IMG/VR virus record: IMGVR_UViG_3300023184_000045
Location: 1 to 64,000 of that record
DNA from: a virus
DNA: 64,000 nt
Strand: one strand, 5' to 3'
Below are positions 3,215-51,841 of the stretch, in pieces. The position numbers and the translations under genes are program-made. Position 1 is the first letter of the stretch; each line of letters starts with the position of its first letter. The notes under the pieces are model-generated. The model did not search any database, was not told the DNA's origin, and saw only the letters and a list, made by a program, of their open reading frames with translations.

Positions 3215-3222
3215 TATTTAGA
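3215..3222 (-). promoter_or_regulatory. possible weak T4-type late promoter (TCTAAATA)
   Basis: The minus strand reads TCTAAATA, 7 of 8 matches to the T4 late core TATAAATA, about 38 bases upstream of the ATG at 3177. It overlaps the stop codon of the preceding gene. The mismatch is at position 2 rather than the tolerated position 1 seen at the other sites, so this is a weaker candidate. Confidence 0.3.
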
Positions 3223-6200: not shown

Positions 6201-8491
6201 CCACCACTCATGCTGCCGGACGTATTCCAACTTGCACTAATGCCGCCCGCTCCGTTATAACCAGCAGTCAATGTAAATGACCTTCCGCTGGATATATGCC
6301 ATAGGTCAATTAAACTGCCGCCTTGGCCAGATGGTGGATAAGCTGTTTGATAGAACCAACATTCGACAGTAAAGTCGCTTGACCCAAGCGCCCAGGCCGA
6401 ACTAGTTGGGTAACTCACGTAACTACTGCCATTGAATAGTAAACTACCTGCTGCGGCAGTGGCAGTAGCAGCAACCGATGGTACTATAGAAGAACTGTAC
6501 GTAATACCACCATTGTTAGTTACTGTAAAGTTATTTAAACTAGAATCTACTATTTTATTAGCGTCGCTGTTAACTAATAATAGTAAAGAAGTGTTAGTAA
6601 TAACAGTTAAAGGCAAGGGCAACGAAAAGGCAGCGGTATATACCGCTGTTCCTTTTACAATTCTAAAATTAGTCATGTAGCCCCCAAAGTAGGCCGTGGC
6701 GCCTGACCCGCTATACTTACCTATAACCGGACCATTTAGAACATAAGTATTTGAATCAGAGTAAGTGGAACCTTCTTGAATACCGTTTAGATACATTTTT
6801 GTAGAGCCGCTGGATTTAACTACAGCCACATGGTACCAAATACCAGTTGAAAGTGTAGTAGTCCCTGTTATTGTATTTGTGTTTGCTACGTTATACACTA
6901 AATTAGTTGATACCAGTATCATTGGACCTGCATTAAGAGTAATACCATTCCTCATATCAATGATAACACTACCTGAGGTAGAATTTAAATAAAACCAAGT
7001 TTCTATGGTCCAGTCGCCTGTGTCAAATTGAAATGCTGCATTACTAGGAATACTAAGATATTGGCTAGTACCATCAAATAACAAACTGCCAGCAGCAAAT
7101 GTGCTTACTGCATTTCCACCACTGCTGCCGCCAAGGCCGCCGGCAGATCCGGCTGCTCCGGCAGTTCCATAGCCGCCCCAAACACTACTAGGTTGTAAAC
7201 CAGTGCCGCCAATACCACTAACTGCACTAGATGTAAATCCACCACCCCCGCCCGACCCGCCAGCTGTACCCGAGGATCCAGTTAATGCGCTACCGCCTGC
7301 GCCACCGCCAATGGCAACCAAGTCATTAACACCAAACAAAGTAAAACTAACAACTGACGTGTTGCCGCCATTGGATCCAATACTGCCGCCGGTACCAACA
7401 GTGACTGCACAATTTGCTGCTGTATACGATAACAGTGAAGCGGATCCTAGTATAACCCCGCCGCCGCCTCCAGTTCCAGGTTGTGGTGCTGAACTGGACC
7501 CGCCGCTGCCTGCGCCACCGCCGCCAGCCACTACCAAATAATATAGATAAGCATCTGGTTTAAAAGTTAATGTATAAAATTTACTAATACTAATACCCAT
7601 TGACGAGGATGCTGTAACAGTAATAGTATATGCACCGGAATTTGACGCAAATTGTTGTTGGGTATATGAAAGGACACCAGTTGATGCATCTATTGCTAAT
7701 CCGCTGGGTCCAGTGTCAATAAAATAAGTTACAGTACCGCCATTGGAATCTTGGGCAGCAAACGTTTCAATTGTGGTGTAAGTACTATTAATAATAGTAT
7801 CGCTATCGCCGCCTGCTATCCAGTTCATATTAGCGCCACCTACACCGCCTGCAGCATACAATATGGTTGGCGTTGATGCCGATGAATCAAGGAAATAAGT
7901 TGCGCTGCCATTGTTACCAGCTATGTTACCCGGACTACCGCCTGCGCCAACAACAATAGTATAGTCACTTCCTGGCGTTACAAGATATAAATTATAGTAG
8001 TCAAGTAGGCCGCCATTGCCACCAGACCCGCCAGTGGCTTTTTGTTGCCCACCTCCACCTCCGCCAATGCCCGCCATGCTAACGGATGTTACTCCAGCTG
8101 GGCAAGTCCAGGTATAGGTGCCAGGTGAGGTATATGCTACGGTTGCATACGAGCTAACATTTGCAACAATATTACCATATGCAACGTTTAGTCCACTATC
8201 AAATAATGTAGTTGCACTCAAACTAGTAGTATTAGCCGACGATGTTGTAACAGTGGCAGATGCAACAGCAAATATTTGACCAATTTGATCAGGTGCGTAG
8301 CCGGTGGTTTTAATTGTATTAACCAGCGCTGGTGTAGTTTGCAATCCCACATTGCTAGTTGTGTTAACAACAGTTTCTCCGGGTGTTACGGTACCTACTG
8401 TAGTTTTAACCAGCGAAGAATCTTCTTCAACAGTAACTATCGTCGTTAGACGATTAACAACTAGATCAAGACTGGGTAGTATAGCAGACAC
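3218..8491 (-). CDS. 1,757-aa LamG/Gly-rich/Ig-like adhesin
   Basis: Large virion adhesin candidate. Residues 1-115 have no recognised domain. Residues ~115-215 form a Gly-rich domain of the CPAGVTSVS type. Residues ~235-312 resemble a putative Ig fold (GLAIDASTGVLSYT). Residues ~316-460 are Gly-rich (YYLVVAGGGGAG). Three tandem LamG domains follow at ~465-680, ~683-890 and ~898-1115 (WTIETWFYLN, FTVECWFYQT, FTLETWLYYQ). More Gly-rich modules occupy ~1145-1205, ~1213-1425 and ~1440-1757, ending in VVIIRYSDTY and GGYRIYKW. The three LamGs appear inserted within a Gly-rich domain. The start is GTG, chosen because GAGGA lies 7-8 bases upstream, overlapping the stop of the preceding gene. No peptidase S74 chaperone or signal peptide is seen. 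Host-surface binding is inferred from LamG family knowledge. Confidence 0.9.
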   Translation of the reverse strand: MSAILPSLDLVVNRLTTIVTVEEDSSLVKTTVGTVTPGETVVNTTSNVGLQTTPALVNTIKTTGYAPDQIGQIFAVASATVTTSSANTTSLSATTLFDSGLNVAYGNIVANVSSYATVAYTSPGTYTWTCPAGVTSVSMAGIGGGGGGQQKATGGSGGNGGLLDYYNLYLVTPGSDYTIVVGAGGSPGNIAGNNGSATYFLDSSASTPTILYAAGGVGGANMNWIAGGDSDTIINSTYTTIETFAAQDSNGGTVTYFIDTGPSGLAIDASTGVLSYTQQQFASNSGAYTITVTASSSMGISISKFYTLTFKPDAYLYYLVVAGGGGAGSGGSSSAPQPGTGGGGGVILGSASLLSYTAANCAVTVGTGGSIGSNGGNTSVVSFTLFGVNDLVAIGGGAGGSALTGSSGTAGGSGGGGGFTSSAVSGIGGTGLQPSSVWGGYGTAGAAGSAGGLGGSSGGNAVSTFAAGSLLFDGTSQYLSIPSNAAFQFDTGDWTIETWFYLNSTSGSVIIDMRNGITLNAGPMILVSTNLVYNVANTNTITGTTTLSTGIWYHVAVVKSSGSTKMYLNGIQEGSTYSDSNTYVLNGPVIGKYSGSGATAYFGGYMTNFRIVKGTAVYTAAFSLPLPLTVITNTSLLLLVNSDANKIVDSSLNNFTVTNNGGITYSSSIVPSVAATATAAAGSLLFNGSSYVSYPTSSAWALGSSDFTVECWFYQTAYPPSGQGGSLIDLWHISSGRSFTLTAGYNGAGGISASWNTSGSMSGGTTSLNTWYHAAFVRNSANFYLYLNGQQVATTTAVTITGSSDPLFIGANNDSASPTWFFNGYITNVRIVKSAMYSSGFSPTVPLSLVPNTSLLMLVSNNTNRAVDSSTNNFTPTISGATFSSTVIPNASGSVTTAGGSIYFNGTSATLTIPSNAAFNLTADFTLETWLYYQGSSSPCVIMNNQGGASPTRGWMWVLYTDGRMGLDWSISGNGTVVSGGSYTATVAVTFNAWCHVALVRSGTAYTFYINGAAGGAGTMSGAVNFVGSFAIGYPVNETTGATYFKGYMTNMRVVNGRAVYNSAFTPTLLSVVPNTTLLMLVNSSLTYLTDSSTNNLTVTSVNATYNASVVPTAAGTNGPISVNILGNVIASYSDGGLTSNSSVNYGGGGSRVSYGTAGNAGVAYFWYAGTQRANGGSLVQSVSYGGTNYWLHKFTSSGYFDLTTLGGSLSVDYFIVGGGGGAGYDVGGGGGGGGVVIGTAYALQLATVVTVTIGTGGASDQTATTGGADGQPTSLSIDITGTVTAQGGGGGGSHTGFDTPPTIGHPGGSGGGGGGQYSAAGGASTQSSYPLFGGVGYGYAGGASWNSTWGGGSGGGAGGAGSTGTGGLVAGGAPLISSFSGSSAKYAGGGYGNSDAGAVYATGYDGSNTLQGYYGYGANGTGVPNASTYNGNPGIAIIRYAGLLQLGTGGTVTTSGGYTIHTFTSNGTFVVNSIVIQVEYLVVAGGGGGAWYGGGGGAGGFLTATGYSVNLGTAIPVVVGAGGTYGVGTPTYTLATNGLNSSFNTTIVAYGGGAGQKNTYVGLANSGGSGGGGAPNGSVANNGGYGVYPGSPYISAPRQGYDGAGGGTGNTDYSGGGGGAGGLGGNGNAAGAFNCTVGGVGLSSSITGASMYYAGGGGGGGWIGNGAGGTGGGGQGGTGAATGTNGGDGTPNTGGGGGGAGYNPAHGGTGGSGVVIIRYSDTYNAAAGTTNLAAGYPVVSGGYRIYKWITSGTITF

Positions 8492-23800: not shown

Positions 23801-26800
23801 AGGTATTTGTTAATGCAAAATTGTTCGGAGAGTTGTCAACAAATGTACTATTCTGTAATGTTAATATACTAGTTTGTCCAGCTTCAATTGCTGCTGACGG
23901 TATTCCATTTACGTTAATATCTTGTGTAACTGTTAACGGAACTGTTGATGGTGTAAAGTTGCCAGTGGTAATCACCAGTGTACCTTTTACCATGCGAATA
24001 TTTGTAATGGATCCAACAAATTGCCTACTAGGCCCATTGATCCACGCACCTATATAAGTTTGAAAACTTGAAGACCAATTAACGGATACCGTTGACACTG
24101 CCACTGATCCTATTAGGCCGGCATTTCTATACAGATACATAGTTGTACCTGTACGTATAAGTCGATAATAATACCAATTATTTGCCGCTATGACGCCCGC
24201 AGATTCTGTGATAGTGTACGCAGTAACTCCAGAGTATACAGTTGCAGTCATTGCAGCATTGTTCATTTCCAATACAATACCTTCATCTGCATTGGTAGTA
24301 ATTGTACTGTTTGAAATAGAAAACACACGTTGCAATCCGGTTACGCCGCCAGGATATATCCATAAATCTACTGCAAAGTTGCCGCTGCCAACTTGGAATG
24401 CTGCATTGTTTGCTACCTGTAGATACTGTATAACTTGACTTTGGTCAGTGGTTAATGTGTTAGGAAAACTTCTACCCGGGCCCCATATTATACGAACGGC
24501 GCCGCGGCCACCTTGTCCTGCCAACAGTGTTGGATGGTCACCCGGCTTATAGCCGAAGTTATATCCGCCTCCACCGCCGCCAAAATCCCCGCCAGGTGTT
24601 AATCCTATAGGCGAAGCTCGCAATCCTGTAAGTTCTATACCTGTATAAGGCCAACTATCGCTACCACCACTGTCACCGGTGCCAAATGGTGTTGCCAACC
24701 TATAGATGGCGCCATTGTTGGTTATTGTGTTTGGTGTTGTACTTGAATCGGTTATGTATGCTGCACTGTTTGCAGACAACAATAATAACGATGTTGCACT
24801 TGAACTTGCAATTGGCTGAATGTTAAGTATTGGGTTACCAGTCTGTGTTACAGTCAGTGGTGCAGTAGGTGGTGTGAAGTTACCTGTGTAGACTGCAACA
24901 CCTTTGACTATACGTAAATTAGTTACATAACCATTTTGATATATACTATTATATACACCCATATTGAGAGGGAGTGCAGCACTAGACTGCGGGGTTCCAC
25001 TAATTGCTGTTAGAGTTTGTGCTACTCCGTTTACAAATATTCTAATTCCGCCCGAGGTCTTGGTCATTGCAATGTGAGACCATGCACTAAGAGCTACTGT
25101 ATTTGTAGAAAGCACAGAATTTTGCGTACCATTAAAATAATAAAAACGAATTTGCCCAGTGGCACTACCAATGCCAAATGACCAATAATTAGTCGAAACA
25201 TTATAACCCATATTACCAACAACAGTTGGTCCATTTACGCTGGCGCTAGAATACCAATTGGCATACGACAATGGATATATCCAACATTCTAAAGTATAGT
25301 CAGTGGTCCACCAATCAAATAATGCTGTTGAATATGGTGTTGTTAGATAATTAGAATTATTAAAAAACAGTGCGCCACCCGGTGCGTATTCTGCTGACCC
25401 GCCGGCAGTAAATCCACCTGGATTACTTGAGGCAATTCCACTTGTTCCTTGCCCTAGTACTCCGGTGCCGCCGCCGCCCGATCCTACTATAGTACCATTA
25501 CCAATGCCACCGGCACCGGCGCCGCCAGACCCGGCACTAGCAGGGTCGATTGAGTACGACGAAACACCAAGGCCGCCAGCACCAACATATCCGCCTGCGC
25601 CTCCGCCCCCACCGCTATTAAAGGTAGGGTATATTGTGGCACCTGCGCCGCCTACTCCGCCACCGTCGCCAGCATAAGCACCACCTGCACCACCTGCATT
25701 ATTAATGGCGCCGCCGCCGCCGCCCCCGAACACGGTTGATGAATTTATAAAATAACTAGAGCCGCCAGCGGATGCAGGCACGTTGGTACCTAAATCTTGG
25801 CCACCAACTCCAGCTACAACTGTATAACTTTGTCCGGGCGTTACAGAAATGTTGTTTTTCCATCCCAGGCCACCTCCACCGCCGCCAGTGGCGCCCAGAT
25901 AGGCACTCCCCGACCACCCCTGATTTCCGCCACCACCTGCGCCAATGGCTACAACTGATACACTAGTAACACCAGGTGGGCATACCCAATTGGCATTACT
26001 TGTAAATAACTGTTGATAAACCAAATTAGCAGTTACTAAACTACCACCAGTGTCCAATGGTGTTAATGCGCTATAGGCAATTGGATAAGTTGCAGAGTTT
26101 AATACTGTAAATGCATTTGCACTAGAGTCTGTAATGTAAGTTGTGTCTGATGCTACATTTAACAATAAGGATGTACCAGCAACGTTTGCAGTTAGTGTAG
26201 TTGGCACCGATCCTCCATATAGTACAACGCCGTTGACAAATCTAAAGTTGTGTATATATCCAGTAAAATATTGGCCAATACTACTATTTCCGATAGTTAA
26301 CACGTTATCTGTAAAGTTATTTGTATTGGTTGTACTATTTGTTAGTGTTCCATTTAGCCAACAAGCGTGTACATTTGCGCGGCGGGTATATGCAACGTGC
26401 ATCCATGTATTGGTTGGAATGGTTCCCGCAAAGCCTCCATTTATAGCAGAACCATTATAATTTCGTACGCCTATACCATTGGTGTTGCTAATATACCAAT
26501 GCCATCCAGCATTACTATTACCAATTGTAGTACTAGCAATTGTTTCTGTTGCCCCACCGGGTACCGTAATATATACCCAACATTCTGCTGTAAAATCTCC
26601 TACTCCTGTAGCAAAAGCAGCAGAGTTTGCGGTAGTTACTATTTGGGCAGCACCATTAAAATAGACTGGGTAGTTAAGGCCAGATGTTGGAAAGAATGGA
26701 TTGTTTAAATCTGGACGGGCAGATCCAGCCGTAACAACTGCTAATGCATTTGAACTAGCATCTGCATTATATGGGGGTGCCAAAGTGTCGGCTTGTATTT

Positions 26801-27022: not shown

Positions 27023-28012
27023 CTACCAGACTATTGACCCAGATTGAGTAAATATGTAACTAATATTTACACCAGAAACGATTAAGGTAGGATTACCTGT
27101 AGTTGCGGTTGCATAACCATATGTAGCCGAATAACGCAGAACAACTGCGCCCGATCCACCAGTACCACCAATGCCACCGGCACCACTTACATTTCCTGCT
27201 CTACTTGTACCACCACCGCCACCACCGCCGGTATTTGCAGTTCCAGGATTTCCTGCGCTTAAGAATGTTGCTCCACCAGCGCCGCCGCCACCTATTCCTC
27301 CAGCACCAGGAATTCCGATAGAGGTATCCCCACCACCGCCACCACCGCCGGCATAGTAAGCAAAATAGCCGGCTATCGAGGAACCTAGGCCAGCGCCGCC
27401 AACCCCGCCGCTGACTGCTGGAGTTCCGGTGCCACCTACTGCATTTTTTCCACCTCCGCCTCCTCCAGCGCCGTTGCCTCCTCCAGTTGTAACGGCGCCA
27501 CCATCATTTCCTTGTCCTGCGGTTCCTGTACCAGCAGTTGATACAAAGTTAGCGCCACCACCAGACCCACCGTTCCTGACAACGTTTGTGCCAGAGTTTT
27601 GAATGCCGGAACCGCCACCACCACCAATGGCTGTTATTGTAGAGGTTCCGGCAATAATTGAATTTCCGCCAGCGCCGCCATTTCCTGTATTAAAATTAGG
27701 ACCAGCCGTGCCACCACCACCTACACTTATTATTATACTGGCGCCAGAAATAACAGAAAACCCTGTAGCAGTTAATAAGCCGCCGGCGCCGCCACCGCCA
27801 CCGCCTGTAGTATTGCCGTCTCCGCCACCACCGCCGCCGCCGGCTACTACTAAATATTCAACTGTTGGTGGAGCTCCTGATCCCAGAGACGGCCAGCGAT
27901 TTGCTTGTTTATTTTGCAACTGCTGAGATAAAGTCCAAATTCCACTGGTACTGGAAGAGGTAGGATTATAAATTGATCCTGAGATTATCCCTCCAGGATA
28001 TCGCTTGCTCAT
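27023..28012 (-). CDS. 329-aa Gly-rich domain protein
   Basis: N-terminal module MSKRYPGGIISGSIYNP followed by SGIWTLSQQLQNKQANRWP is a known-looking aquatic phage fibre N-terminus. Residues ~50-329 are one uninterrupted Gly-rich domain: VEYLVVAGGGGGGGD, alternating GG(A)GG blocks with short hydrophobic strands, then GAVVLRYSATYG and IFTQSGSIVW at the end. Gly-rich domains of some T4-like adhesins (for example the S16 gp38 type) fold as polyglycine-II sandwiches that carry receptor-binding loops; the same is possible here. This copy is the best template for seeing where LamG domains have been inserted in the longer neighbours. One base separates its start from the stop of the upstream gene. 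Confidence 0.88.
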   Translation of the reverse strand: MSKRYPGGIISGSIYNPTSSSTSGIWTLSQQLQNKQANRWPSLGSGAPPTVEYLVVAGGGGGGGDGNTTGGGGGGAGGLLTATGFSVISGASIIISVGGGGTAGPNFNTGNGGAGGNSIIAGTSTITAIGGGGGSGIQNSGTNVVRNGGSGGGANFVSTAGTGTAGQGNDGGAVTTGGGNGAGGGGGGKNAVGGTGTPAVSGGVGGAGLGSSIAGYFAYYAGGGGGGGDTSIGIPGAGGIGGGGAGGATFLSAGNPGTANTGGGGGGGTSRAGNVSGAGGIGGTGGSGAVVLRYSATYGYATATTGNPTLIVSGVNISYIFTQSGSIVW

Positions 28013-28380: not shown

Positions 28381-31300
28381 TTATCCTCCGAATACTATTG
28401 TCATTGCAATAGATTTTCCTGCTGAAATTCCGCCCGAGCTGCCAGTGTATCCTGCACCAACGCTGCCTGCATATCCTATGCTGCCAGAGTAACCAGTTTG
28501 ACCTAGATCAAATATTTGGAATACTCCTACCATACTGCCATATGTATAAGACACATAGTACAGTGTAGCAGGTGCATCATATGGTACTGTAAATGTTACT
28601 GTAGCATTTGAACCACCGTTATTAGTTATCCCAGATGAGTAGTAATTGCTGGCTCCAGTAGTGCCAACAGTTTTAATAATAAACCCTTCGGATCCAACAT
28701 TAAAATAGTATGTGTATCCACGGGCTAGTGTTATTGTAGGATTGTTTACTCCGTTGATTACAAAAGCTGATGTAGTTGGTGATGTTACTGTGTAGTTAAC
28801 GCCGCCTGCAATACCTTGACTGCCAGTGTAGCCAATTGCCGTGCTGGCCGATCCGGTGTATCCTGTACCTGTACTACCTGTATAGCCCAAACTTCCAGTG
28901 CTACCTGTATATCCAGTGTCACCCTGGATTGCACCTGGCAATTCTCTAATTTGTATGATTACACCAGAACTAATGGTTCCTACCATGGTCAGTGTTGTGC
29001 CAGTGATTGAGTAGTCAACTGTTGGGCGCTGTACTACACCATTAGCCATTACCAAGGCGCTGTCATTGGTTATGCCATTGCTGACTGTAAATGTATTACC
29101 ACCAGTGGTAGTATACAATCTGGTCAAGAATGGTGTATAAGCTGGCCCAAATACCTGTGTAGTAATTTCAATTTGTGCTGCCAATGGAGGTGCTTCGCTA
29201 AATGTAATAACACTACCTAACAATGAATATGAACTCTTTAGCTGTATAACACCATTTAAGTTTATAGTTGTATTGTTTATGTTTCGAGGAGTAACACTAA
29301 GAGTAAATGCCAGTGTAGATCCATCACCAGTAAAAGTATCAACTATACCAGTGTAACTAAGTTGTCCAACTGACCCAGTATATCCTGCACCGATACTACC
29401 TGTATAACCAGGAGCAGTACTAACCGATCCAACATATCCTATGCTGCCACTGTAGCCAATTGAACCCGAATATCCAAGTGGTCCTATAAATCCAATTGAC
29501 GCGGCTTCAACCCATTGTGTGCTAGATCCGTCGTCTGTATAAGTGAGCAGTACGCCAATTGTTGTGTCAAACCATCTATCACCAGCTGCTGGACTTGTTG
29601 GCGCGGTGTCAGAGAAATAGTAAGCGCCTGCACCTGCTCCACCGCCGCCACCACCAGAGCTGTACGGAGAACCATTGGCCCAAAACACGCCGCCAGTGGT
29701 AACCAGTCGTCCACCAATGTATACGTTACCGGCAACACCGGCACCACCCCCAACTACCAGGGCGCCAGTTGTGCTACTTGTGCTGTCAGTTGGTAATATC
29801 GTTCCACTGGCTAAACCAGTCCAAGAAATTGACCCTGATGTAGTCCATATGTATGTTCTATATCCGCCCGCAACAGTAACAATAGGTGATCCTGTTGTTC
29901 CCGTTGCTGCGTCAAAGCTGTCTGGATATCGTATAACAACAATACCCGATCCACCGTTGTCAACATAGCCAACATATGGAGCCCAGGGATACTGGCCACC
30001 ACCGCCACCACCAGTATTTTGTCCACCACCGCTAATTGTAGCAGCATTATATCCACTGCCCATGGCTCCAGCCGCACCACCAGTTGCGCCACCTTGTCCG
30101 CCGCCTGCGCCGCCTGCGCCAGGTGTTGCGCCCGAACCACCGCCACCGCCTGCCCAATAGTAACTGGTTCCAGTAATTGAATTTGCCGCACCTATACCGC
30201 CGTTGCCACCTGTGGTACCAGATTGATTTCCGCCCGGACCGCCTGCACCACCGCCGCCGCCAGCTGCGCCTACAGCGCCGTCGCTTGAACCGCCTGCGTA
30301 CCCTTGCCCACTGGTTCCTGCACCAGGCGTGCCAACTGCAAGACCAGTGGAATAAGTGCTGCCCGCGCCACCACCTGACCCTCCACTAAGGCCATTCATG
30401 TTTTGATAATAGCCACCACCGCCACCACCACCAATTGCATTTATACCAAATGGTGATGTTGCGTTATATGTTGATATTGCACCATTGTTAACAATGGTAA
30501 ATGCATTGGTAGAATTGTCTACGATAGTAGCATCTTGCAGTGTTAACAAACTGGTTTGTGTACCAGTAATGGCACTGATGTTTGCTCCGCTGCTCTGTGT
30601 AGTAGATAGTTTGCTCGAAGGCGGTGTAAATGCTCCTGTATAGACTGCTACACCTTTGACTACACGGAAATTATTTATGTTTCCAGTCACGTATCCGCTT
30701 GCTAAAACGTCCCCAGTATCACCAATGTACCAATTTGAGCCTACTCCATTTAAATTTATGCCACTTGCATTGTATGGAGTACCAACAATTGTGCCATTCA
30801 CATATAAACTAAGTGTTCCACTATATCGTACCAGTGCTAAATGTACCCAAGTATTGTATACAATTGTACCCCCTTGTATTACTGGGAAAGTACCATTCAT
30901 TGCAACTTGATATGCTGTAATAGTTCCACTAGCGTGTCCTGCAATAAGACTTAGTGCGCCGCTTGTAAAACTATTATAGTTACTAAAAATAACTGGATAC
31001 GATGAAGTTCTGGCAGTTAAGTAACTCCAACACTCTACTGTGAAATCTCCTGTACCAAATTGAAGTGGCGAAGCTGAAGCTATGGTTAGATACTGACTAG
31101 TGCCATTGAAACTGCCTGAATAATTAAGTCTGTCGCTGATGTAGGAAGTACTACCACTGCCGCCTGCTGTGTATGCTGCTGTTGCGCCGATACCGCCAGC
31201 ACCAACGATTACAGCAACATTAGCATCAGTACTTACGCTGTAGCCAGATGCAGCCAAGTATCCGCCACCTCCGCCGCCTGCCTGAGTACCACCTCCGCTG

Positions 31301-34300
31301 CCGCCAGCAACAACCAAATATTCAATGGTAGACGGTGCTAGCCCAGTATAGGTCATTAGTCCACCAACATACAAGTTACCTTTAATGCCAGCACCGCCAC
31401 GTACTTGCAATGCACCTGTTAAGGATGTAGTTGCTACTGTGGTATTCGATATTACAATTTGATTGTTACCATCAAAACTGCTGCTGCCTCCGCCGGTGCC
31501 AGCACTACCTGTGTATCCTATACCAATCGACCCCGCGTAGCCGATTGATCCAGCATAGCCGATTGATCCAGCATAGCCAACTCCGATTGATCCAGTATAG
31601 CCAACTCCAATTGATCCAGTATAACCAACTGACCCGTTGTATCCGTTGCCGCTGCCCCCAGAACTAAATGGTGTTCCGTTGGCCCAGAATATACCATCGG
31701 TAGTAATTAATCTTCCACCAACATATACATTACCAGCAATACCAGCACCACCACTTACTACTAGTGCGCCACTAGTTGTACTTGTGCTTAAACTTAAATC
31801 TGGAGGAGTTGTACCTAAAGTTATTGTCCCGGCACCAGTGAATTTATATATTCTATATCCGCCGGTTGTTGTGTATGTAACTGTTCCAGTGGTCGCCGAT
31901 GCTGCATCATAGGTGTCAGCATATCGAATGATAACAACACCAGATCCGCCGCGGCCTTCAGCACCGTTATTTGTGCCTACGCTACCGCCGCCACCAGTAT
32001 TTGCTACGCCGTTTTGACCAGTGTTATTACCAACTTGAAGAGATCCGTTGCCACCGCCGCCAGTACCACCCATTGCGTAGTAGCTGGCGCCACCACCTGC
32101 ATAATATGTTCCAGAACCAGCTGGCCATTCTTTACCGGCGCCGCCTGCGCCAGGATACCCTGATCCAGCAGCGCCTGCACCGCCGCCGCCAGTGACATAG
32201 TATCCGCTGCTAGAAGCACCACCATCGTTACCATAACCGCCACTGGCGCTAGCTGGTTGTAATCCATAACCGCCACGGTCAGCAACCCTGGATGTTCCAG
32301 CACCCGATCCACCACTATTACCAATGCCATATTGTTGGCCGCCGCCGCCACCTAACGCAGTAATAGTTGATGATCCAGATAATTGTAAAGTTGAATCAAT
32401 ACCGTTAGTGGCAACAGCGCCGCCAGCGCCCACTGAAATGGTCAATGTATAGCCAGGGGAAACAGATGATGTTCCCATTACAAAACCGCCTGCACCACCT
32501 CCGCCGCCGTTACCGTCATTGCCTGTTCCGCCACCACCACCGCCGCCTGCAATCACTAAGTAATCAAATGCCGATGGCGCATTTCCTAAATCGGGTGAGT
32601 ATCCAACACGTAACCCTCTGCCAATGCCGGCACCGCCTGCTACTATTAATGCGCCAGTAGTAGTTGATGTCGACGGCGTAGTGTTGCTGGTTATGATCTG
32701 TTGTGTAGTTGTGCCGCTGAATGTACCAGCTGATCCTGCATAGCCAATTGATCCCGAGTAGCCAATTGATCCTGCATATCCTAATCCTGCCGAACCAGTG
32801 TAACCAGCTGGACCCGAACTGGTAAACGATGCACCATTGGCCCAAAATATACCACCACTGGTAATTAAACTGCCGGTAGTGGTAATATTTCCACTGGCAA
32901 CAATACTGTTGGCATATTCTGTATTGGTTATCGTTTCATAGTTTAATGTAGTAATGTTACCAGTTACTACTAAATTGCCACCAATGTATAAGTCGCCGGA
33001 TACGCCTACTCCGCCAGTGACTACTAATGCGCCTGTGTTAGCACTAGTACTTGGAATTGCACTATAGGATAGTGTGTTGTAGTATTGGCCAGCAGTATCT
33101 GTCAGTACCGTACCGGTGGTTGTTGCATCGTATGTATCTTTATGGTAATAAAGATTAATCTTATAATTAACGCTGCCAGATAAACTTACTGTTTCGGTGT
33201 ATACAACACTATCATTTGTATATAGGTAATTAAATGTTAGTGTTGATCCAGTTTTTCGTACTCGGAATCTAAATGCAATATTACCAACATTGGTGAATGC
33301 ATAATGTATCAAAGGTCGAGCCAGGCCAGCGGATGGATATGCCGTATAGCTGGCCATATCAAGTGCCGCAGTATAAGTGCTTGTGTCGACGTTTAAATAA
33401 CCTATCCCAATTTCGCCTGTGTACATACCAATTCCAGGGAATTCAATTTTAAAATCAAAGTCTGGGCTTGCTGTTGTAAATGTATAGTTAGCAGGATGAT
33501 TGTAACCCGTAGTAGCATTAGTTAACGATATTGAACTTATATACCCAGATGTTACTGCTGTTGCCGATCCAATGTATACATTGCCGTTAATTCCGGCACC
33601 GCCTGCGACTACTAATGCACCTGTTGTAGTGCTAGTTGACGCAGTGGTGTTGCTGGTTATAATCTGCTGTGTAGTTGTCCCACTAAAAGTACCTACTGAT
33701 CCAGCATAGCCAATTGATCCAGTATAACCAATTCCACCAACACTTCCGCTGTAACCGGTTGATCCACTATATCCAACACTTCCGCTGTAACCTGCTGATC
33801 CACTATATCCAATTGGGCCGCTACTAGTAAACGATGTACCATTTGACCAAAATATACCCTGCGTAGTAGGAATTACTAAATTACCGCCAATATATAAATT
33901 GCCTGCTATACCAGCGCCACCACTGACTACTAATGCGCCAGATGTGGTGCTTGTGCTAGTGCTAGTAGCATTGGCTGTACCCGAAGCATTAAAACTAATT
34001 GTCCCGCTGGTTAAGAACGTGTATATTACATAGCTGCCACTTGTAGTTACTGTTGCGTTTGTTGTTGTTGCGGTTGCATAGGTATTAGGATGACGAATAA
34101 TTACAATACCTGAGCCACCAGCACTACCATTACCGCCACCACCTCCGCCGGTATTTGCAGCACCATTTCTTCCCGGACTAGCGCCAGATCCGTTGCCACC
34201 TCCGCCCAGTCCACCAACAGTTGCACCAGTTGAGCCAGCACCGCCGCCTGCATAATACGTAGGAGTTCCAGAAATATTTGTTTGTACGCCGACACCACCA

Positions 34301-37300
34301 TCGGTTGGAGTATTGCTCAACGATGTGTTTAATGCAGCAGCGCCAGCACCGCCTCCACCGCCGCCTGCATAGTGTGTGGATCCGGTACCACCTGCATAAC
34401 CTTGTCCTGTTGTGCCAGAACCGGCTGGTACTGTAGGTTCTGCAGATCCACCGCCGGATCCACCATTGGCACCACCAGCACTCATTGATACACCGCCACC
34501 AGCATTGCCACCGCCACTGTTAGGTCCACCGCCACCACCACCTAGAGATACGATAGATACTGCACCGCCTATGATAGAAGAATTTCCACCTTTAAATCCG
34601 GTTACTTCTTCGCCACTAACAGCAGTTCCACCGTTACCAATTGTTACGGTATACGTTACACTAGCTGATACTGCTGCAGGAGATTCTGCGCTGGCTCCAC
34701 CGCCTGACATTTCTCCAACTACACTAGATCTATAACCACCTGCACCACCACCACCAGACCAATAATATCCACCACCAGACCCGCCGCCTGCAACTACAAC
34801 ATACTCAATAGTAGCAGGGGCGCCGGATGGGGTAGTGTACACTCCACCAACAAATAAATTACCAGCAATGCCGCCGCCGCCGGCAACCTGCAATGCGCCT
34901 GTTATGGCACTAGTAGATGGTGTTGTATTTGATGTTATTATCTGTTGTGTAGTTGTGCCGCTGAACGTACCCGTTGATCCAGTATATCCTGCATTACCAA
35001 TGCTTCCACTATAACCAGCCGAACCAGCATAACCGCTTGATCCGGCATATCCAGCAGATCCTGCATAGCCAACTCCGATTGATCCTGCATAGCCGCTTGA
35101 TCCGGCATAGCCAACACTGCCTGCATATCCGGCAGATCCTGCATAGCCAACACTGCCTGCATAGCCAACCGAACCAACGTATCCTAAATCACCGCGGTCA
35201 CCAGTCCTGGCAAATGTAACAATCAGCGATGTGCCATTAGTAAATGATCCCGGACCCGACAAGTAGGAGATGGGCACATGGAAATGGTTGTGTACCGGCG
35301 CGCCTTCTTCGGTATGATTACCAATAATTGCAAACATTGCATAGTTTGCATTGTTTCCATTTTCTACTACAGTAAAATGTCCCTTGATGCTGGATGTTGA
35401 GTCGTCAATAGTTTGTAAGAAACTGTAGGCCGATACTCCCAACTTATCATAAAAGTTGATGTACATTACCGTAGCAGACGATAGTGTAGTTGAATCAAAT
35501 TCAACGTTGCCTGATGTAGGATCGGTTATGGTAGTATCACTGCTGTAAGTGTAAGAAAAAGCCTCGCCACCAAAATTACCATCGTTACCTTTAGAACCCG
35601 TATAACCAACGCTGCCAGCGTATCCAGCACTACCTGCATAACCTTTACTGCCAGCATATCCCAACGCACCGCTGGCACCCTTAGGACCCTGACCGCCCTG
35701 AATACTATCTTCAATAGCTACATAATCAATTTGAGTTTGATGTGCTACATTGCCGGTGTTACTATGGTATAGTCTAATTGTGGCTGCTCCACTATTAACA
35801 TAATTAGTAGAATCTATTACTTCTAATGCAAACTGATAAAAGCCGCCTAATCCTGTATAAGATCCAATATTATCCCATACTGTTGTTAAATTATTATATA
35901 CTTGAACATAAATTATGTGGCCAGAATTCTGTGTATAATTAATATTTAATGCAACACGATTGAACTTAACGACACCAGTAAATCCAACAGTTACTATCCA
36001 AGCAGGTCCTGCATGCGTGCCGTCAGTAATGGTATAATAATTGCCATCGTTAAAAGTTTGTATGTCAGTCAACCCGCCAGACACATAAACACCATCAGTT
36101 AGCGATATTGATTGCGCTGTATAAGTCAACGATTCTGGTGTAATACCGCTAGCACCAACAGGGCCTGTTGCTCCTGTTGCACCAAATGATCCTGTATAGC
36201 CAATTGGACCTGTTGCGCCTTGGTTACCTTGTGGTCCAGTTACATTACCTACGTCTGCAAATGCAGTTCCTGACCAAACAGCCAAGTGACCATTTGCAGC
36301 TATAATGTAGCCATCACCAAAGTTGCCCACTACAGTATCGTCTGGCCCATTTAACCATGTTAAACTAGGAACTGATCCAAGTATGGTAATACTAGTTCCA
36401 TCAATACCTTTGCTACCTGTGTAACCAAGCGAGCCTGCATAACCAACGCTGCCGACATAGCCTTCGCTGCCTGTATAGCCGACGCCGATCGAGCCAGTAT
36501 AACCAAATGCGCCAGTTGATCCGCTGGCACCCATAACGCCTGTTGCACCAGATGATCCTACTGGGCCAACAATTTTTCCAATATCATTCCATTGTCCGGT
36601 TGACACGTTCCAGAACCATAATGCGCCATCTAAGTGGGCAGCACCGTCGCCGGTGGTAACTATCCAGCCGTAGCCAGCAAACGTATTCCAATCCATTGGC
36701 GCTGCGGGCAAGTCGGCAATAGTTGCTTTGGTACCTTGTAAGGTAACACTAACACCCTGCGCACCGGTTGGACCTGTTGCTCCAGTGGCTCCCGAAGCAC
36801 CAGCGCCTGTTGCACCACGACTGCCTATGTATCCAGCACTGCCGGTATAGCCGTTACTGCCAGAGTAACCCGAAGCCCCAGTGGCTCCAAATCCTGTAGC
36901 ACCCGTTGGACCAGTTGCGCCTTGTGTACCCGGTGTACCTCTGCTGCCAACATAACCATTTGACCCTGCATACCCAGAACTACCTGTGTAGCCAATTGGG
37001 CCAGTGGCACCAGTGTTGTAATACGGAACACCATTTGCGTAGAAATAATGGTCTGAGTATATATTACCAGTTATTGTAACATTGCCTGTGGCTGTTAAAT
37101 CTACTGTAGATATTAAATCGGCACCAGTGATAGCAGCATATGTACCAGTTGTTATAAAACTTTCTGCGTATACATTTCCAGTTACAACAATTGTATTAGC
37201 ATATTCTGTATTGGTTATTATTTCGTAGTTTAGTGTAGTAATGTTACCAGTTACTACTAAATTGCCGCCAACATATAAATTACCTGTGATACCTGCACCA

Positions 37301-37488
37301 CCTGCTACAGTTAATGCCCCTGTTGAATAGTCAGTGCTAGCTGTGGTATTTGCTACAAAAAATGTATTATCTGTGCCGTGAACTCCCTGTGCAACCCGCG
37401 ACCAGGCATTGTTTGTAGCAGAATAGATGTAGGTAATCCCATCTATCACTGTTACTGTATTGCCCGCTGGTGTTGTTGGAAATGTCAT
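28381..37488 (-). CDS. 3,035-aa giant modular tail-fibre protein
   Basis: Starts MTFPTTPAGNTVTVIDGITY. Nine copies of a fibre module with consensus TTGALVVAGGAGIAGNVYIG recur between residues ~45 and ~2,570, each linking to collagen-like hexads GYxGSx. Gly-rich domains lie at ~896-1136, ~1643-1850 and ~2056-2520; the third contains one LamG domain (~2120-2340, FTVECWSYLT) in its middle. Residues ~2716-2796 carry two VxxNGVxQ-type fibre modules. Residues ~2893-2993 form a cupredoxin-like domain that lacks the usual Cys and His. The Gly-X-Y hexads suggest a trimeric fibre. No S74 autoproteolytic chaperone is seen at the C-terminus, which ends IAMTIVFGG. ATG start with no strong Shine-Dalgarno sequence. 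A tail-fibre role is inferred from module content. Confidence 0.92.
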   Translation of the reverse strand: MTFPTTPAGNTVTVIDGITYIYSATNNAWSRVAQGVHGTDNTFFVANTTASTDYSTGALTVAGGAGITGNLYVGGNLVVTGNITTLNYEIITNTEYANTIVVTGNVYAESFITTGTYAAITGADLISTVDLTATGNVTITGNIYSDHYFYANGVPYYNTGATGPIGYTGSSGYAGSNGYVGSRGTPGTQGATGPTGATGFGATGASGYSGSNGYTGSAGYIGSRGATGAGASGATGATGPTGAQGVSVTLQGTKATIADLPAAPMDWNTFAGYGWIVTTGDGAAHLDGALWFWNVSTGQWNDIGKIVGPVGSSGATGVMGASGSTGAFGYTGSIGVGYTGSEGYVGSVGYAGSLGYTGSKGIDGTSITILGSVPSLTWLNGPDDTVVGNFGDGYIIAANGHLAVWSGTAFADVGNVTGPQGNQGATGPIGYTGSFGATGATGPVGASGITPESLTYTAQSISLTDGVYVSGGLTDIQTFNDGNYYTITDGTHAGPAWIVTVGFTGVVKFNRVALNINYTQNSGHIIYVQVYNNLTTVWDNIGSYTGLGGFYQFALEVIDSTNYVNSGAATIRLYHSNTGNVAHQTQIDYVAIEDSIQGGQGPKGASGALGYAGSKGYAGSAGYAGSVGYTGSKGNDGNFGGEAFSYTYSSDTTITDPTSGNVEFDSTTLSSATVMYINFYDKLGVSAYSFLQTIDDSTSSIKGHFTVVENGNNANYAMFAIIGNHTEEGAPVHNHFHVPISYLSGPGSFTNGTSLIVTFARTGDRGDLGYVGSVGYAGSVGYAGSAGYAGSVGYAGSSGYAGSIGVGYAGSAGYAGSSGYAGSAGYSGSIGNAGYTGSTGTFSGTTTQQIITSNTTPSTSAITGALQVAGGGGIAGNLFVGGVYTTPSGAPATIEYVVVAGGGSGGGYYWSGGGGAGGYRSSVVGEMSGGGASAESPAAVSASVTYTVTIGNGGTAVSGEEVTGFKGGNSSIIGGAVSIVSLGGGGGGPNSGGGNAGGGVSMSAGGANGGSGGGSAEPTVPAGSGTTGQGYAGGTGSTHYAGGGGGGAGAAALNTSLSNTPTDGGVGVQTNISGTPTYYAGGGAGSTGATVGGLGGGGNGSGASPGRNGAANTGGGGGGNGSAGGSGIVIIRHPNTYATATTTNATVTTSGSYVIYTFLTSGTISFNASGTANATSTSTSTTSGALVVSGGAGIAGNLYIGGNLVIPTTQGIFWSNGTSFTSSGPIGYSGSAGYSGSVGYSGSTGYSGSVGGIGYTGSIGYAGSVGTFSGTTTQQIITSNTTASTSTTTGALVVAGGAGINGNVYIGSATAVTSGYISSISLTNATTGYNHPANYTFTTASPDFDFKIEFPGIGMYTGEIGIGYLNVDTSTYTAALDMASYTAYPSAGLARPLIHYAFTNVGNIAFRFRVRKTGSTLTFNYLYTNDSVVYTETVSLSGSVNYKINLYYHKDTYDATTTGTVLTDTAGQYYNTLSYSAIPSTSANTGALVVTGGVGVSGDLYIGGNLVVTGNITTLNYETITNTEYANSIVASGNITTTGSLITSGGIFWANGASFTSSGPAGYTGSAGLGYAGSIGYSGSIGYAGSAGTFSGTTTQQIITSNTTPSTSTTTGALIVAGGAGIGRGLRVGYSPDLGNAPSAFDYLVIAGGGGGGGTGNDGNGGGGGAGGFVMGTSSVSPGYTLTISVGAGGAVATNGIDSTLQLSGSSTITALGGGGGQQYGIGNSGGSGAGTSRVADRGGYGLQPASASGGYGNDGGASSSGYYVTGGGGAGAAGSGYPGAGGAGKEWPAGSGTYYAGGGASYYAMGGTGGGGNGSLQVGNNTGQNGVANTGGGGSVGTNNGAEGRGGSGVVIIRYADTYDAASATTGTVTYTTTGGYRIYKFTGAGTITLGTTPPDLSLSTSTTSGALVVSGGAGIAGNVYVGGRLITTDGIFWANGTPFSSGGSGNGYNGSVGYTGSIGVGYTGSIGVGYAGSIGYAGSIGYAGSIGIGYTGSAGTGGGSSSFDGNNQIVISNTTVATTSLTGALQVRGGAGIKGNLYVGGLMTYTGLAPSTIEYLVVAGGSGGGTQAGGGGGGYLAASGYSVSTDANVAVIVGAGGIGATAAYTAGGSGSTSYISDRLNYSGSFNGTSQYLTIASASPLQFGTGDFTVECWSYLTARTSSYPVIFSNYNSFTSGALSLIAGHASGTITAYQVAMNGTFPVIQGGTIVYNTWVHLALVRYSGTLSLYVNGTIVGTPYNASGINLNGVGSNWYIGDTGDVLASGYVTGNINNFRVVKGVAVYTGAFTPPSSKLSTTQSSGANISAITGTQTSLLTLQDATIVDNSTNAFTIVNNGAISTYNATSPFGINAIGGGGGGGYYQNMNGLSGGSGGGAGSTYSTGLAVGTPGAGTSGQGYAGGSSDGAVGAAGGGGGAGGPGGNQSGTTGGNGGIGAANSITGTSYYWAGGGGGSGATPGAGGAGGGQGGATGGAAGAMGSGYNAATISGGGQNTGGGGGGQYPWAPYVGYVDNGGSGIVVIRYPDSFDAATGTTGSPIVTVAGGYRTYIWTTSGSISWTGLASGTILPTDSTSSTTGALVVGGGAGVAGNVYIGGRLVTTGGVFWANGSPYSSGGGGGGAGAGAYYFSDTAPTSPAAGDRWFDTTIGVLLTYTDDGSSTQWVEAASIGFIGPLGYSGSIGYSGSIGYVGSVSTAPGYTGSIGAGYTGSVGQLSYTGIVDTFTGDGSTLAFTLSVTPRNINNTTINLNGVIQLKSSYSLLGSVITFSEAPPLAAQIEITTQVFGPAYTPFLTRLYTTTGGNTFTVSNGITNDSALVMANGVVQRPTVDYSITGTTLTMVGTISSGVIIQIRELPGAIQGDTGYTGSTGSLGYTGSTGTGYTGSASTAIGYTGSQGIAGGVNYTVTSPTTSAFVINGVNNPTITLARGYTYYFNVGSEGFIIKTVGTTGASNYYSSGITNNGGSNATVTFTVPYDAPATLYYVSYTYGSMVGVFQIFDLGQTGYSGSIGYAGSVGAGYTGSSGGISAGKSIAMTIVFGG
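34965..35195 (-). repeat. densest GYxGSx collagen-like hexad tract
   Basis: Within the 3,035-aa gene, about twelve consecutive hexads of the form GYAGSx (Gly every third residue) encode a short collagen-like shaft. Plus-strand units are near-repeats such as GATCCTGCATAGCC. Similar shorter tracts lie near 28440, 28850, 29390, 31510-31640, 32730, 33690-33810, 35590, 36420 and 36830. Confidence 0.85.
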
Positions 37489-47719: not shown

Positions 47720-47740
47720 ATGTAATCGCACCAATTACAT
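47720..47740 (-). other. short inverted repeat at gene junction
   Basis: A perfect 7-bp dyad (ATGTAAT .. ATTACAT) with a 7-base loop overlaps the TAA stop of the SGNH-domain gene. It lacks a U-tract on the minus-strand RNA, so it is not a standard terminator; it may stabilise or process the transcript. No late-promoter octamer is present in this 58-base gap. Confidence 0.35.
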
Positions 47741-50700
47741 TATATAAACGCATTTAGGTGGACCTATTTGCCCAGTCTGAGTCATTAAAGTATATGTAAA
47801 ACTATCAAGCCCTTCATAATCGGGAAACGGCACATAGGCAAACTTTTTTCTATCACTTGTTATACGCACATATCCGTGTTGTGGTTGAGATATTACTATT
47901 GGCTCTGAATACTTACCAACACCAACTCTAACATTTAAAAAACTGTTATACAAGTTAATAGCTTTTGTATCAGTTGCATCTACGACCACTGGATTGTTAG
48001 TAACTTTAGCATATGTAGGTGCATCGGGACTACCAGGGGCCCATCTGCCACGAGTGAATCGTTGCGTAAAAGTATCATAGTTTTGTATATTATCAATATC
48101 AATTACAGTAGCATTAACCGACACGTCCGGAGATGTATCGCATATAACTGTTACTATTCCGTATACTTCTTTTTTAAAAATTATTTTATTATCAAATGTA
48201 ATATTAAAAGTTTCAAACGGCATAGCCGACGTTTTTTCAGTTGCATAATGATAATTCAGTATTCTGGTTCCGTTAACTGGCGGAACATTACCTACTATAT
48301 TATAAAACGTAGGATTTATCAGTGGCACTAAATTTCCTGTTATATCCAATGCCTTAGGTATTGGCGGAAATATATCTACAGCAAATGGTGTTCCGTCTGC
48401 TGCAATTTCAAAATTAATTTCGCAATACGAATTATACGAACTGCACACATCCATTTGTGCAAAATCGTCTATCATTTTAAGATTATTAACACCTCTAGTA
48501 TTCCATATTATGGCGCCTGCCGGATTTGTCACTGTTGCTGCTACACCATTAATTTTATATTCAATTTCTTTTACACTCGACGTTGCCCATATTCTATTTC
48601 CGCTAGCATCTTTAATCACAGCACCTATGCCTGCTTGCGCAATTATATTCGATGCTGTTATTTTAATTATCCATATGCTAGCTTCCATAAAACTAGAACT
48701 AATAAACGCATTTTGATAGTTGTCACTGATCTCGGTTTGATTAGTTTCAACTATTAGTTCAAAATCAGAACTTAAATTGTTTTTATTTTTTATATATAAA
48801 CTTCCTATGCCGTCGGCTGAAAACTCAAATGTATATGTTTCGCTGCGAGGGATTATAACTTCCCAAATATAATCACCGTTGCCGTCCCAAACTCCGTATT
48901 CAGTTATTAAAGTATTCCAATTGCTATTTGACACCTTAGTTGCAGGATAATATTCTTTTGATTTAATCAATCTATTATAATCTGCTGCAAATATTTTAAT
49001 TTTATACCAACCACAATTATCAATATAATATGCAGTTGAATTAACAGTACTGTACTGGTCGTTAGGGGATCCAACTGTTTTAATAATTTCTATATTTCTT
49101 GCCTGCCCCGAAATTCCAGAACTTGACTGTAATTGTAAATTTGCTGTGCTATCTGCAGATATTGAAAAAACATATGTATCTGCTTTGGGTATAAACAAGT
49201 CCCATTCATAATATTTGTAATTCCATTTTAAACTAGATGTAATATTCTCAATTGTAAAATTAACCGAATCCATACCTGTTAATTGATCGCCTACCGCAAA
49301 TACTAAAATAGAAGTGCTAGTAAAAGTGTCAGGAACAACTAAAGTACCAACTTGAGAATCGCTATTTCTGCCAGATGTTGAATATATATGATGATATAGT
49401 GTTTCTGTCAGTGGCAACGTTACTCCTAGGGCAACATCCCATATCCAATATCCAATCCTAAAATAGTATTCAGCGTTAAACTCACATGCCCAAGGAATGT
49501 AATCACCAGATTCAACTATTCGCATTTGATTAATTGGTGTTGTAATTCCAAACTTCAATAAGTCAGCCGCAGTAACATTGTATCCAACTAATACTATATC
49601 TTCTGTAGAAGCAGCTCCTGTTACAGGAGTTAAATTTTTAATTAATGGAATAATTCCATTGTTAAATTCTATGTTAGTCCAAATACTTTCAGCGGGCGTT
49701 GTGATCATATCATTTGTAATGTCGCCGGACGTTTTGGCTACATTCCAAATACTAAAATGTGTAAGGTAGCCAGAGAATTGTGTTGTTGCATCTAGTTTTT
49801 TATTTCCTATTATTAAAGGGTTTGCACTAGCTTCGGATGTACGCACAATGTCGGATATTGTATCAATCAGGACTCCGTCAATATAAACTCTCAGGGTAGT
49901 GCCATTTTCTATTACCACTGATAAAAATGTGTTAACATTTGGGTAAATAGTTGCAGTACTATAATACCAAAATTCATCAATAGCATTGATTCCCCAATCT
50001 ATAGCAACTGAAATTTTTCCATTTGCCTCAATATAAATTTCGTATTCGTTATTTTTACTTGCAATTACTCCGCCTTTTGTTGATGTTCTATGCACCCAAG
50101 TTTGTATAGTGTAAGAACCAGTAGGATTAAAAGACAAATTAATCTTAGGCGAACTATCAACTGTAACAAAACCAACAGTGTTATTTGTACCAAATTTTAT
50201 TGCCATCTCGGATCTGTTAGGTGGTACAGCAAATGTAACATTATTTGATATAGTAACAGTTGCAGTAGGCTCGATTAAATCTATTAGATTATCGGCTGCA
50301 CTATTTACTTCTAACTGTAATAGTGGACCCAAAGTTGTTATTGTTAGTGTCCCCGATGCTACGCCACTTGTACTGCCACCATCTAATATTCCAGTTTTAA
50401 TTGTATACGTATTTTCAAAAATTCCTGATATGTTGCTTTCCCACACACTATACGTATTCAATAAAGTAGACCAATTTGGTGTTGTGGTTGTTACTATCTG
50501 GTATTGGTTGGCTCGTTCTCTATGGTTTGTTCCTACAATACCAACATTATTGTTATGCAAAATTGTGTTTTGATCAGTCGCATCATTGCATCCGCCGTAT
50601 GCTTCAATTCCGTTACCTTTTCCACACCCTGGAATTCCTACCAGGATATACGATGATCTAATTTTAAACAACGTAGATTCAAAAATTTCTTCGCTTGCAC

Positions 50701-51841
50701 CACATCGATACATAGCTTGAATTAATAACGGATCCAATCTATTAATCTTAGGATCGTTAAACGTGGTAATTATTACAATGTATTGGTCTGACGTTGCATT
50801 AAGTGTTGCGGCTAATTTTTTAGCTTCGTTGGGGTCAACTGACAAATTAAAATTTTTGTTGTATACTAATTTTCCAGTTTCTCTGAATATTTTTGATAAG
50901 TTATATGTGTCAGTTGTGGCTACTAATTTAGTATCTGTTTTACTATTATACACGCCAGCTTGTAAAATTCCGTTAGTGTCTCTAAGGCCGCGCGAAACAG
51001 CACGATAAGAAACATTATCACGCAAGTATAGCTCTAACCATCTATAAGAAAGAGGAGTAAAAGATAATTTTATTTCTTTTTCTCCATCTAAATAAAATTT
51101 TTCTTGATGATCTTTTCTATACCATTTATAAGGTGCTGGTGTTGTGCCAATATGTTTTAATATTGCTGCATTTACTTTTGGTGACAAACAAATGTCTACT
51201 ATATTTAAATATCCTAGTTGTCGAGGGTGAATACCGTCGGGCATGCTTCCTACCCACACACTGTTTAACTCGTACGCGTCGGCTATTAAATCTCCATAGA
51301 TAGCAGCGACTTGCCGCATTGCTATTGCATAAGGTTCTGTATTCCAATAGTAATTAAAGATAGGAGTCTGCCATATCATTTTCTGATCAGCTCGTAGTCC
51401 TTGTCTCAATGCAATTAAGTTATTTTTATATTCAAGGACCGGAATACCAAATTTAGCATCATTTAATCCGTGATTTATTACTACAATATTAGCTTCAATA
51501 GCGTCAGGCCAGGCTTCATTTACGCCGTCGGTGCCATTTAACAAATCGCCACTGGTACTATTGCCTTGCGATCGTGTAGTAATAATAAGTTTATATTGTG
51601 GTAGCAATCGAGTCAATAGCTGGGCAGGTGGCTCGGGGACTCTGGCAGTTATTGTATCTTCATTATTACAGACTCCGCATCTTGGTGCTAAAGAATCGGG
51701 ATCGCGCCCGCACATAATACTATCACCAAACAACTCAATGTGTATAAAGTCGTCAATTGAGGATGAAATTGACGCAACATTCATCCCTATATCGACGGTT
51801 TTAGGTACAATTACCTGGTGATTTGGTACAAGTAAAGCCAA
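47735..51841 (-). CDS. SGNH/GDSL-hydrolase tail protein with LamG domain
   Basis: 1,368 aa. Residues ~30-220 are an SGNH/GDSL hydrolase: block I FGDSIMCG (nucleophile Ser41), block II Gly93 in SQGNS, block III HGLND (Gly125, Asn127), block V DGIHP (Asp202, His205), so all four consensus residues and the catalytic Asp are present. Such enzymes deacetylate or de-esterify polysaccharides, which suits a tail depolymerase acting on host capsule or LPS. A LamG domain (~540-730, YTIQTWVHRT) and PA14-like segments (~453, ~873, ~973, WNTLITEYGVWDG) follow; the last ~50 residues (HGYVRITSDRK, YEGLDSFTYTL) resemble a cadherin/Big-type domain. The start is TTG, chosen because AAGGAGG lies 7 bases upstream and overlaps the previous stop. 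Confidence 0.88.
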   Translation of the reverse strand: MALLVPNHQVIVPKTVDIGMNVASISSSIDDFIHIELFGDSIMCGRDPDSLAPRCGVCNNEDTITARVPEPPAQLLTRLLPQYKLIITTRSQGNSTSGDLLNGTDGVNEAWPDAIEANIVVINHGLNDAKFGIPVLEYKNNLIALRQGLRADQKMIWQTPIFNYYWNTEPYAIAMRQVAAIYGDLIADAYELNSVWVGSMPDGIHPRQLGYLNIVDICLSPKVNAAILKHIGTTPAPYKWYRKDHQEKFYLDGEKEIKLSFTPLSYRWLELYLRDNVSYRAVSRGLRDTNGILQAGVYNSKTDTKLVATTDTYNLSKIFRETGKLVYNKNFNLSVDPNEAKKLAATLNATSDQYIVIITTFNDPKINRLDPLLIQAMYRCGASEEIFESTLFKIRSSYILVGIPGCGKGNGIEAYGGCNDATDQNTILHNNNVGIVGTNHRERANQYQIVTTTTPNWSTLLNTYSVWESNISGIFENTYTIKTGILDGGSTSGVASGTLTITTLGPLLQLEVNSAADNLIDLIEPTATVTISNNVTFAVPPNRSEMAIKFGTNNTVGFVTVDSSPKINLSFNPTGSYTIQTWVHRTSTKGGVIASKNNEYEIYIEANGKISVAIDWGINAIDEFWYYSTATIYPNVNTFLSVVIENGTTLRVYIDGVLIDTISDIVRTSEASANPLIIGNKKLDATTQFSGYLTHFSIWNVAKTSGDITNDMITTPAESIWTNIEFNNGIIPLIKNLTPVTGAASTEDIVLVGYNVTAADLLKFGITTPINQMRIVESGDYIPWACEFNAEYYFRIGYWIWDVALGVTLPLTETLYHHIYSTSGRNSDSQVGTLVVPDTFTSTSILVFAVGDQLTGMDSVNFTIENITSSLKWNYKYYEWDLFIPKADTYVFSISADSTANLQLQSSSGISGQARNIEIIKTVGSPNDQYSTVNSTAYYIDNCGWYKIKIFAADYNRLIKSKEYYPATKVSNSNWNTLITEYGVWDGNGDYIWEVIIPRSETYTFEFSADGIGSLYIKNKNNLSSDFELIVETNQTEISDNYQNAFISSSFMEASIWIIKITASNIIAQAGIGAVIKDASGNRIWATSSVKEIEYKINGVAATVTNPAGAIIWNTRGVNNLKMIDDFAQMDVCSSYNSYCEINFEIAADGTPFAVDIFPPIPKALDITGNLVPLINPTFYNIVGNVPPVNGTRILNYHYATEKTSAMPFETFNITFDNKIIFKKEVYGIVTVICDTSPDVSVNATVIDIDNIQNYDTFTQRFTRGRWAPGSPDAPTYAKVTNNPVVVDATDTKAINLYNSFLNVRVGVGKYSEPIVISQPQHGYVRITSDRKKFAYVPFPDYEGLDSFTYTLMTQTGQIGPPKCVYIM

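Follow-up and report, generated by a model that had tools for sequence, protein, structure and literature searches.

A LamG domain nested inside a glycine-rich phage fibre domain, and its recurrence in other viral contigs

A complete LamG domain interrupts a single glycine-rich (Gly-rich) domain of a 3,035-residue fibre protein encoded in the window, the whole stretch of 64,000 nucleotides that we analysed. This nesting is a real and recurrent architecture made from two known domain families: other phages have it at this very turn, and the two halves of the host domain pack together in a predicted structure.

The interrupted domain of the 3,035-residue fibre

The fibre, its interrupted domain and three uninterrupted Gly-rich domains are located as follows.

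28381-37488, minus strand: 3,035-residue fibre, in which collagen-like repeats accompany three Gly-rich domains; one of these holds the nested LamG
31129-31338, minus strand: first part of the Gly-rich host domain, residues 2051-2120, ending ...GSGSTSYISDR
30445-31128, minus strand: nested LamG (PF13385), residues 2121-2348 (228 residues), in the site-1 hairpin turn
29821-30444, minus strand: second part of the Gly-rich host domain, residues 2349-2556, INAIGGGG...VVIRYPDSF...SGSISW
33988-34821, minus strand: first of the fibre's two uninterrupted Gly-rich domains, residues 890-1167
31813-32580, minus strand: second of these two, residues 1637-1892
27026-27874, minus strand: uninterrupted comparator domain within the 329-residue protein 27023-28012, used for an AlphaFold2 model and strand table

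The host domain spans 31338 to 29821, with the LamG in between. An earlier note on this DNA had placed the LamG at 30440-31130, within a few bases of the extent measured here, and all the strings it quoted were found in the sequence. Those of the fibre lie at residues 2051 to 2525: APSTIEYLVV starts at 2051, GSGSTSYISDR occupies 2110-2120, INAIGGGGGGG starts at 2349 and VVIRYPDSF occupies 2517-2525. When excised, the LamG matched PF13385 (Laminin_G_3; E 6e-18, 65.8 bits vs. a curated cut-off of 27.6). Profile searches identified both flanks as Gly-rich, the excised first part by Gly_rich_2, PF21722 (E 1.7e-7, 31.9 bits vs. a curated cut-off of 24.3), and the second, which alone had no Pfam match, by a custom Gly-rich HMM (positions 70-268, 124 bits). 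As a whole, the interrupted domain scored just 21.9 bits against PF21722, below the cut-off of 24.3; the uninterrupted comparator protein scored 65.2 bits (E 1.1e-17).

After removal of the LamG by script, the flanks were collinear with five Gly-rich domains of the window that have no insertion. When 58 such uninterrupted domains from other viral contigs were aligned with the interrupted one, every one of them had its break at the LamG, with only 2-12 of its residues placed inside it. One close uninterrupted relative of the host domain (L129) has the site empty. A further alignment, which mixed isolated LamGs with Gly-rich rows, lost register and was discarded.

The nested segment was modelled with AlphaFold2 (mean pLDDT 77.5). 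Confidence was mostly about 87-96 in the first Gly-rich part, falling to about 75 near the junction, and mostly 85-97 in the second, apart from one Gly excursion where it dropped to 57-84; the LamG was lower than both halves, at about 41-86. When the nested model was compared with predicted viral proteins, it matched single Gly-rich proteins 280-290 residues long, in alignments of approximately 520 columns (target TM 0.76-0.77, ranks 8, 16, and 24). As both halves match single uninterrupted proteins, they form one domain, and the claim that one continuous Gly-rich domain holds a complete LamG in one of its loops was borne out by the model and by this alignment. In the model the halves were neither independent nor unpacked, although the AlphaFold2 input alignment held uninterrupted relatives that could help bring them together, which makes this test supportive rather than independent. 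The nesting of the LamG inside one Gly-rich domain of the fibre is thus confirmed.

Recurrence in other contigs and in the same phage

IMG/VR loci were scanned with purpose-built Gly-rich and LamG profiles, LamG matches being masked before the Gly-rich search and near-duplicates removed before counting. The scan yielded 16 non-redundant insertions into Gly-rich domains, the fibre case included; these counts are not frequencies, because the loci were picked by similarity. The inserted module was a LamG in 15 of them and another module in the remaining one (L012). Ten of the 16 lie at the same place, here called site 1, so that chance does not explain the nesting; the others are distributed over three further sites. 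In the site-1 cases the first parts end at profile positions 69-80 and the second parts restart at positions 63-72 of 270. These cases come from six contigs: the window, L009, L021, L050 (two proteins, one of them with two tandem LamGs) together with L054, which is the same contig as L050, L102 (three times), and L216. A second site is occupied in L025, L034, L216, and L012, and L240 and L009_6682 each have one insertion at other positions. One domain of L216 (8131-12540, minus strand) is occupied at both places, by a single LamG at site 1 and by three in tandem at site 2. The fibre case is therefore not unique, and since different loops are used, several insertion events are required. The module at site 2 in L012 (9415-11055, plus strand) is not a LamG and has roughly 75-100 residues (VNALLTVVRDGATGSYTSITTASGGINYVVGDIVLW...).

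Phage LamG proteins of the same family (PF13385), for example in Synechococcus phages and Phage DSL-LC04, share the guest domain; in the cultured-phage regions scanned, however, LamGs were single or tandem and none lay inside a Gly-rich domain. Bacterial genome matches contained LamGs and no nesting. A tblastn search of phages with a Gly-rich query gave no matches, for which the low-complexity filter is the probable reason.

The LamGs nearest to the fibre guest are 60-63% identical to it over about 160-170 residues and occur in non-nested contexts. In quick trees the window host domain paired with the nested L021 domain and the window LamG with tandem LamGs. The support for guest exchange that these trees would give did not hold: in AU tests, a sister relationship of the window and L021 LamGs was not rejected (p = 0.538), nor was a single clade of all site-1 host domains (p = 0.986), and a single clade of all site-1 LamGs was disfavoured and not rejected (p = 0.07). 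At the junctions of the fibre LamG we found no target-site duplication and no direct or shared repeat (longest shared word ≤7 bases).

Three other proteins of the window were examined as further nested cases.

24474-26021, minus strand: second nested case, in a 3,047-residue protein; PAGVTSV-type Gly-rich part 25389-26021, LamG 24678-25388, Gly-rich end 24474-24677 (...GAVRIIWG)
5183-7546, minus strand: probable third case, in a 1,757-residue protein; Gly-rich start 7103-7546, tandem LamGs 6506-7078, 5849-6436, and 5183-5782
235-3147, minus strand: possible fourth case, in a 1,059-residue protein; Gly-rich first part about 2953-3147, with four LamGs following it

The second case is clear. Its LamG lies within the last Gly-rich stretch of a different Gly-rich subtype, not in a hairpin turn, and L052 provides the corresponding empty site. 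The third is probable, its far Gly-rich half being degenerate. The fourth is possible: the open reading frame leaves the record end, so any resumption of the Gly-rich domain would lie beyond the sequence. The whole 1,757-residue protein (3218-8491) has a broken Gly-rich start and a cadherin/Ig-like stretch, after which come another Gly-rich start, three LamGs, and two intact Gly-rich domains, a layout that is possibly nesting within nesting.

Other genes of the window were recorded alongside these cases. The Gly-rich domain of the protein at 43093-47676 matches PF21722 at positions 2-89 only (residues 158-247), and about 80 non-Gly residues apparently break it before GGGGGGASLLLVNN...AAGGGGGGG resumes. 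Matches to a GDSL lipase/acylhydrolase, to ILEI, and to LamG are combined in the protein at 47735-51841, which from these matches is a possible fibre-borne esterase. The source record, a virus contig of 123,497 bases, has portal and major capsid genes of T4 type as well as tail-sheath genes; the adjacent genes 60588-62024 and 62044-63924 both match the tail-sheath family phrog_12249.

Fold of the host domain and placement of the LamG

The uninterrupted comparator was modelled as a monomer with high confidence (AlphaFold2; pLDDT 93.9, pTM 0.92). The model is a beta-sandwich with several Gly excursions, and its best PDB matches were the Bxb1 tail tip and the Pam3 fibre, with ALK/LTK matching weakly; all TM values were below 0.5, so the fold match is distant. 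Chains Qa and Qb of the mycobacteriophage Bxb1 tail tip (9D93) were the top fold match (E 4.7e-5, prob 1.00), but with a TM of just 0.38-0.47; PPII bundles have been reported for Bxb1 gp33 and gp29 (PMC13243192). The Pam3 gp24 tail fibre (7YPX, 7YFW) shares a TNF-like beta-sandwich with Gly loops in a lattice (Foldseek prob 1.00, E 6.9e-3, TM 0.41-0.46) and differs in that no nested domain is described for it (PMC9608196). Its sequence similarity to the Gly-rich domain is only suggestive (E 0.1). The glycine-rich domain of ALK/LTK (7NX0, 7LS0, 7LIR) is likewise of the TNF-like plus Gly-lattice type, and Pam3 gp24 is reported to resemble ALK (PMC9608196); it belongs, however, to an animal receptor kinase, and the matches were of low probability (TM about 0.2). 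The polyglycine sandwich of S16 gp38 (6F45) has similar Gly-rich motifs and variable tip loops, but its base is a beta-helix and not TNF-like, and it was absent from the 30 PDB matches listed for the comparator model (E up to 10). The earlier guess of a polyglycine-type fold is therefore plausible as regards the TNF-like plus glycine-lattice domains of the Pam3 fibre, Bxb1 tail tip, and ALK/LTK, with which the predicted host fold probably belongs, whereas the comparison with S16 gp38 gave no match.

In the comparator model, site 1 is a 3-residue turn (76-78) joining strands 72-75 and 79-82, and site 2 is the turn 166-171. According to the strand table, Gly-rich excursions (11-32, 51-71, 83-162, and 175-242) alternate with tight turns (41-45, 76-78, 166-171, and 250-256). 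If each strand crosses the sandwich once, the Gly excursions all lie at one end and sites 1 and 2 and the N terminus at the other. Both strands flanking site 1 run into Gly excursions at their far ends, and the turn joining them would thus be at the opposite end. In Pam3 gp24 the Gly loops and lattice are distal (PMC9608196). From strand order and this family topology, the fibre LamG should sit on the base side, opposite the Gly lattice, and not at the tip.

Possible roles of the nested LamG

We consider it reasonably probable that the base-side hairpin slot of a TNF-like Gly-lattice domain carries the lectin cassette as a lateral adhesin. The Gly-rich domain would be one TNF-like beta-sandwich whose Gly-rich loops make a lattice at one end, and the LamG cassette would occupy the site-1 hairpin turn at the other, beside the chain terminus. 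The ends of the LamG fold are close together, which is why it can enter a hairpin turn and leave the host sandwich intact. Folding by itself on flexible linkers, the LamG would hang alongside the fibre shaft and the Gly tip would stay free. Its putative role is that of a lateral, lectin-like adhesin acting through glycan binding. The Gly-rich domain may then act as a chassis for lectin cassettes, since the slot takes a single LamG or several and one domain can use two hairpin turns.

A structural role is the main rival to the lateral adhesin. In a fibre that is long and repetitive, from a phage in which LamGs are numerous, the nested LamG could be a ligand-free spacer or a side contact that stiffens or trimerises the fibre. 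We regard this as unlikely, because LG-type folds, of which those of agrin, pentraxin, and neurexin matched the LamG, commonly bind ligands, and because an insert held on flexible linkers in a turn would presumably make a poor spacer.

The earlier note had proposed display of the LamG at the distal, Gly-rich tip, in the manner of a receptor-binding loop. The receptor sites proposed in Pam3 gp24 and S16 gp38 are indeed Gly-loop tips, and the nested cases at 24474-26021, in L009_6682, and in L240 do fall inside Gly excursions and may be tip-side. For the fibre, tip display is not supported and looks quite improbable: its LamG occupies a tight beta-hairpin turn which, judging by strand order, would lie opposite the Gly lattice.

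Given that low-complexity Gly sequence can produce misleading alignments and that the second part had no Pfam match by itself, one might suspect a string of beads, with two separate Gly-rich half-domains flanking the LamG. This reading is highly improbable and already contradicted, as profile coordinates run continuously across the gap in the ten site-1 cases and both halves align jointly to single domains. An assembly chimera or non-functional recombination scar, for which no support was found, can be practically dismissed, being contradicted by the open frame of 3,035 codons, by the same nest in independent contigs (L009, L021, L050/L054, L102, and L216), and by junctions that share no word longer than 7 bases.

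Returning to the lateral adhesin, we tentatively extend it to the TNF-like glycine-lattice fibre domains of environmental phages in general. These could form a chassis with fixed base-side slots, in which lectin cassettes are inserted and replaced separately from a hypervariable Gly tip, so that one domain would offer two independent adhesive surfaces; we hold this wider proposal possible rather than probable.

Our literature search, with most subscription journals outside its reach, found no earlier description of a LamG inside a Gly-rich domain. The modularity of phage fibres is usually described as end to end; here a module is inserted into a defined turn of another adhesive domain, an arrangement that recurs across phages and is doubled within one domain of L216. 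It points to turns with a natural tolerance for about 200 to 700 inserted residues, and it suggests a way for phages to carry or change lectins while leaving the Gly tip and the trimer undisturbed.
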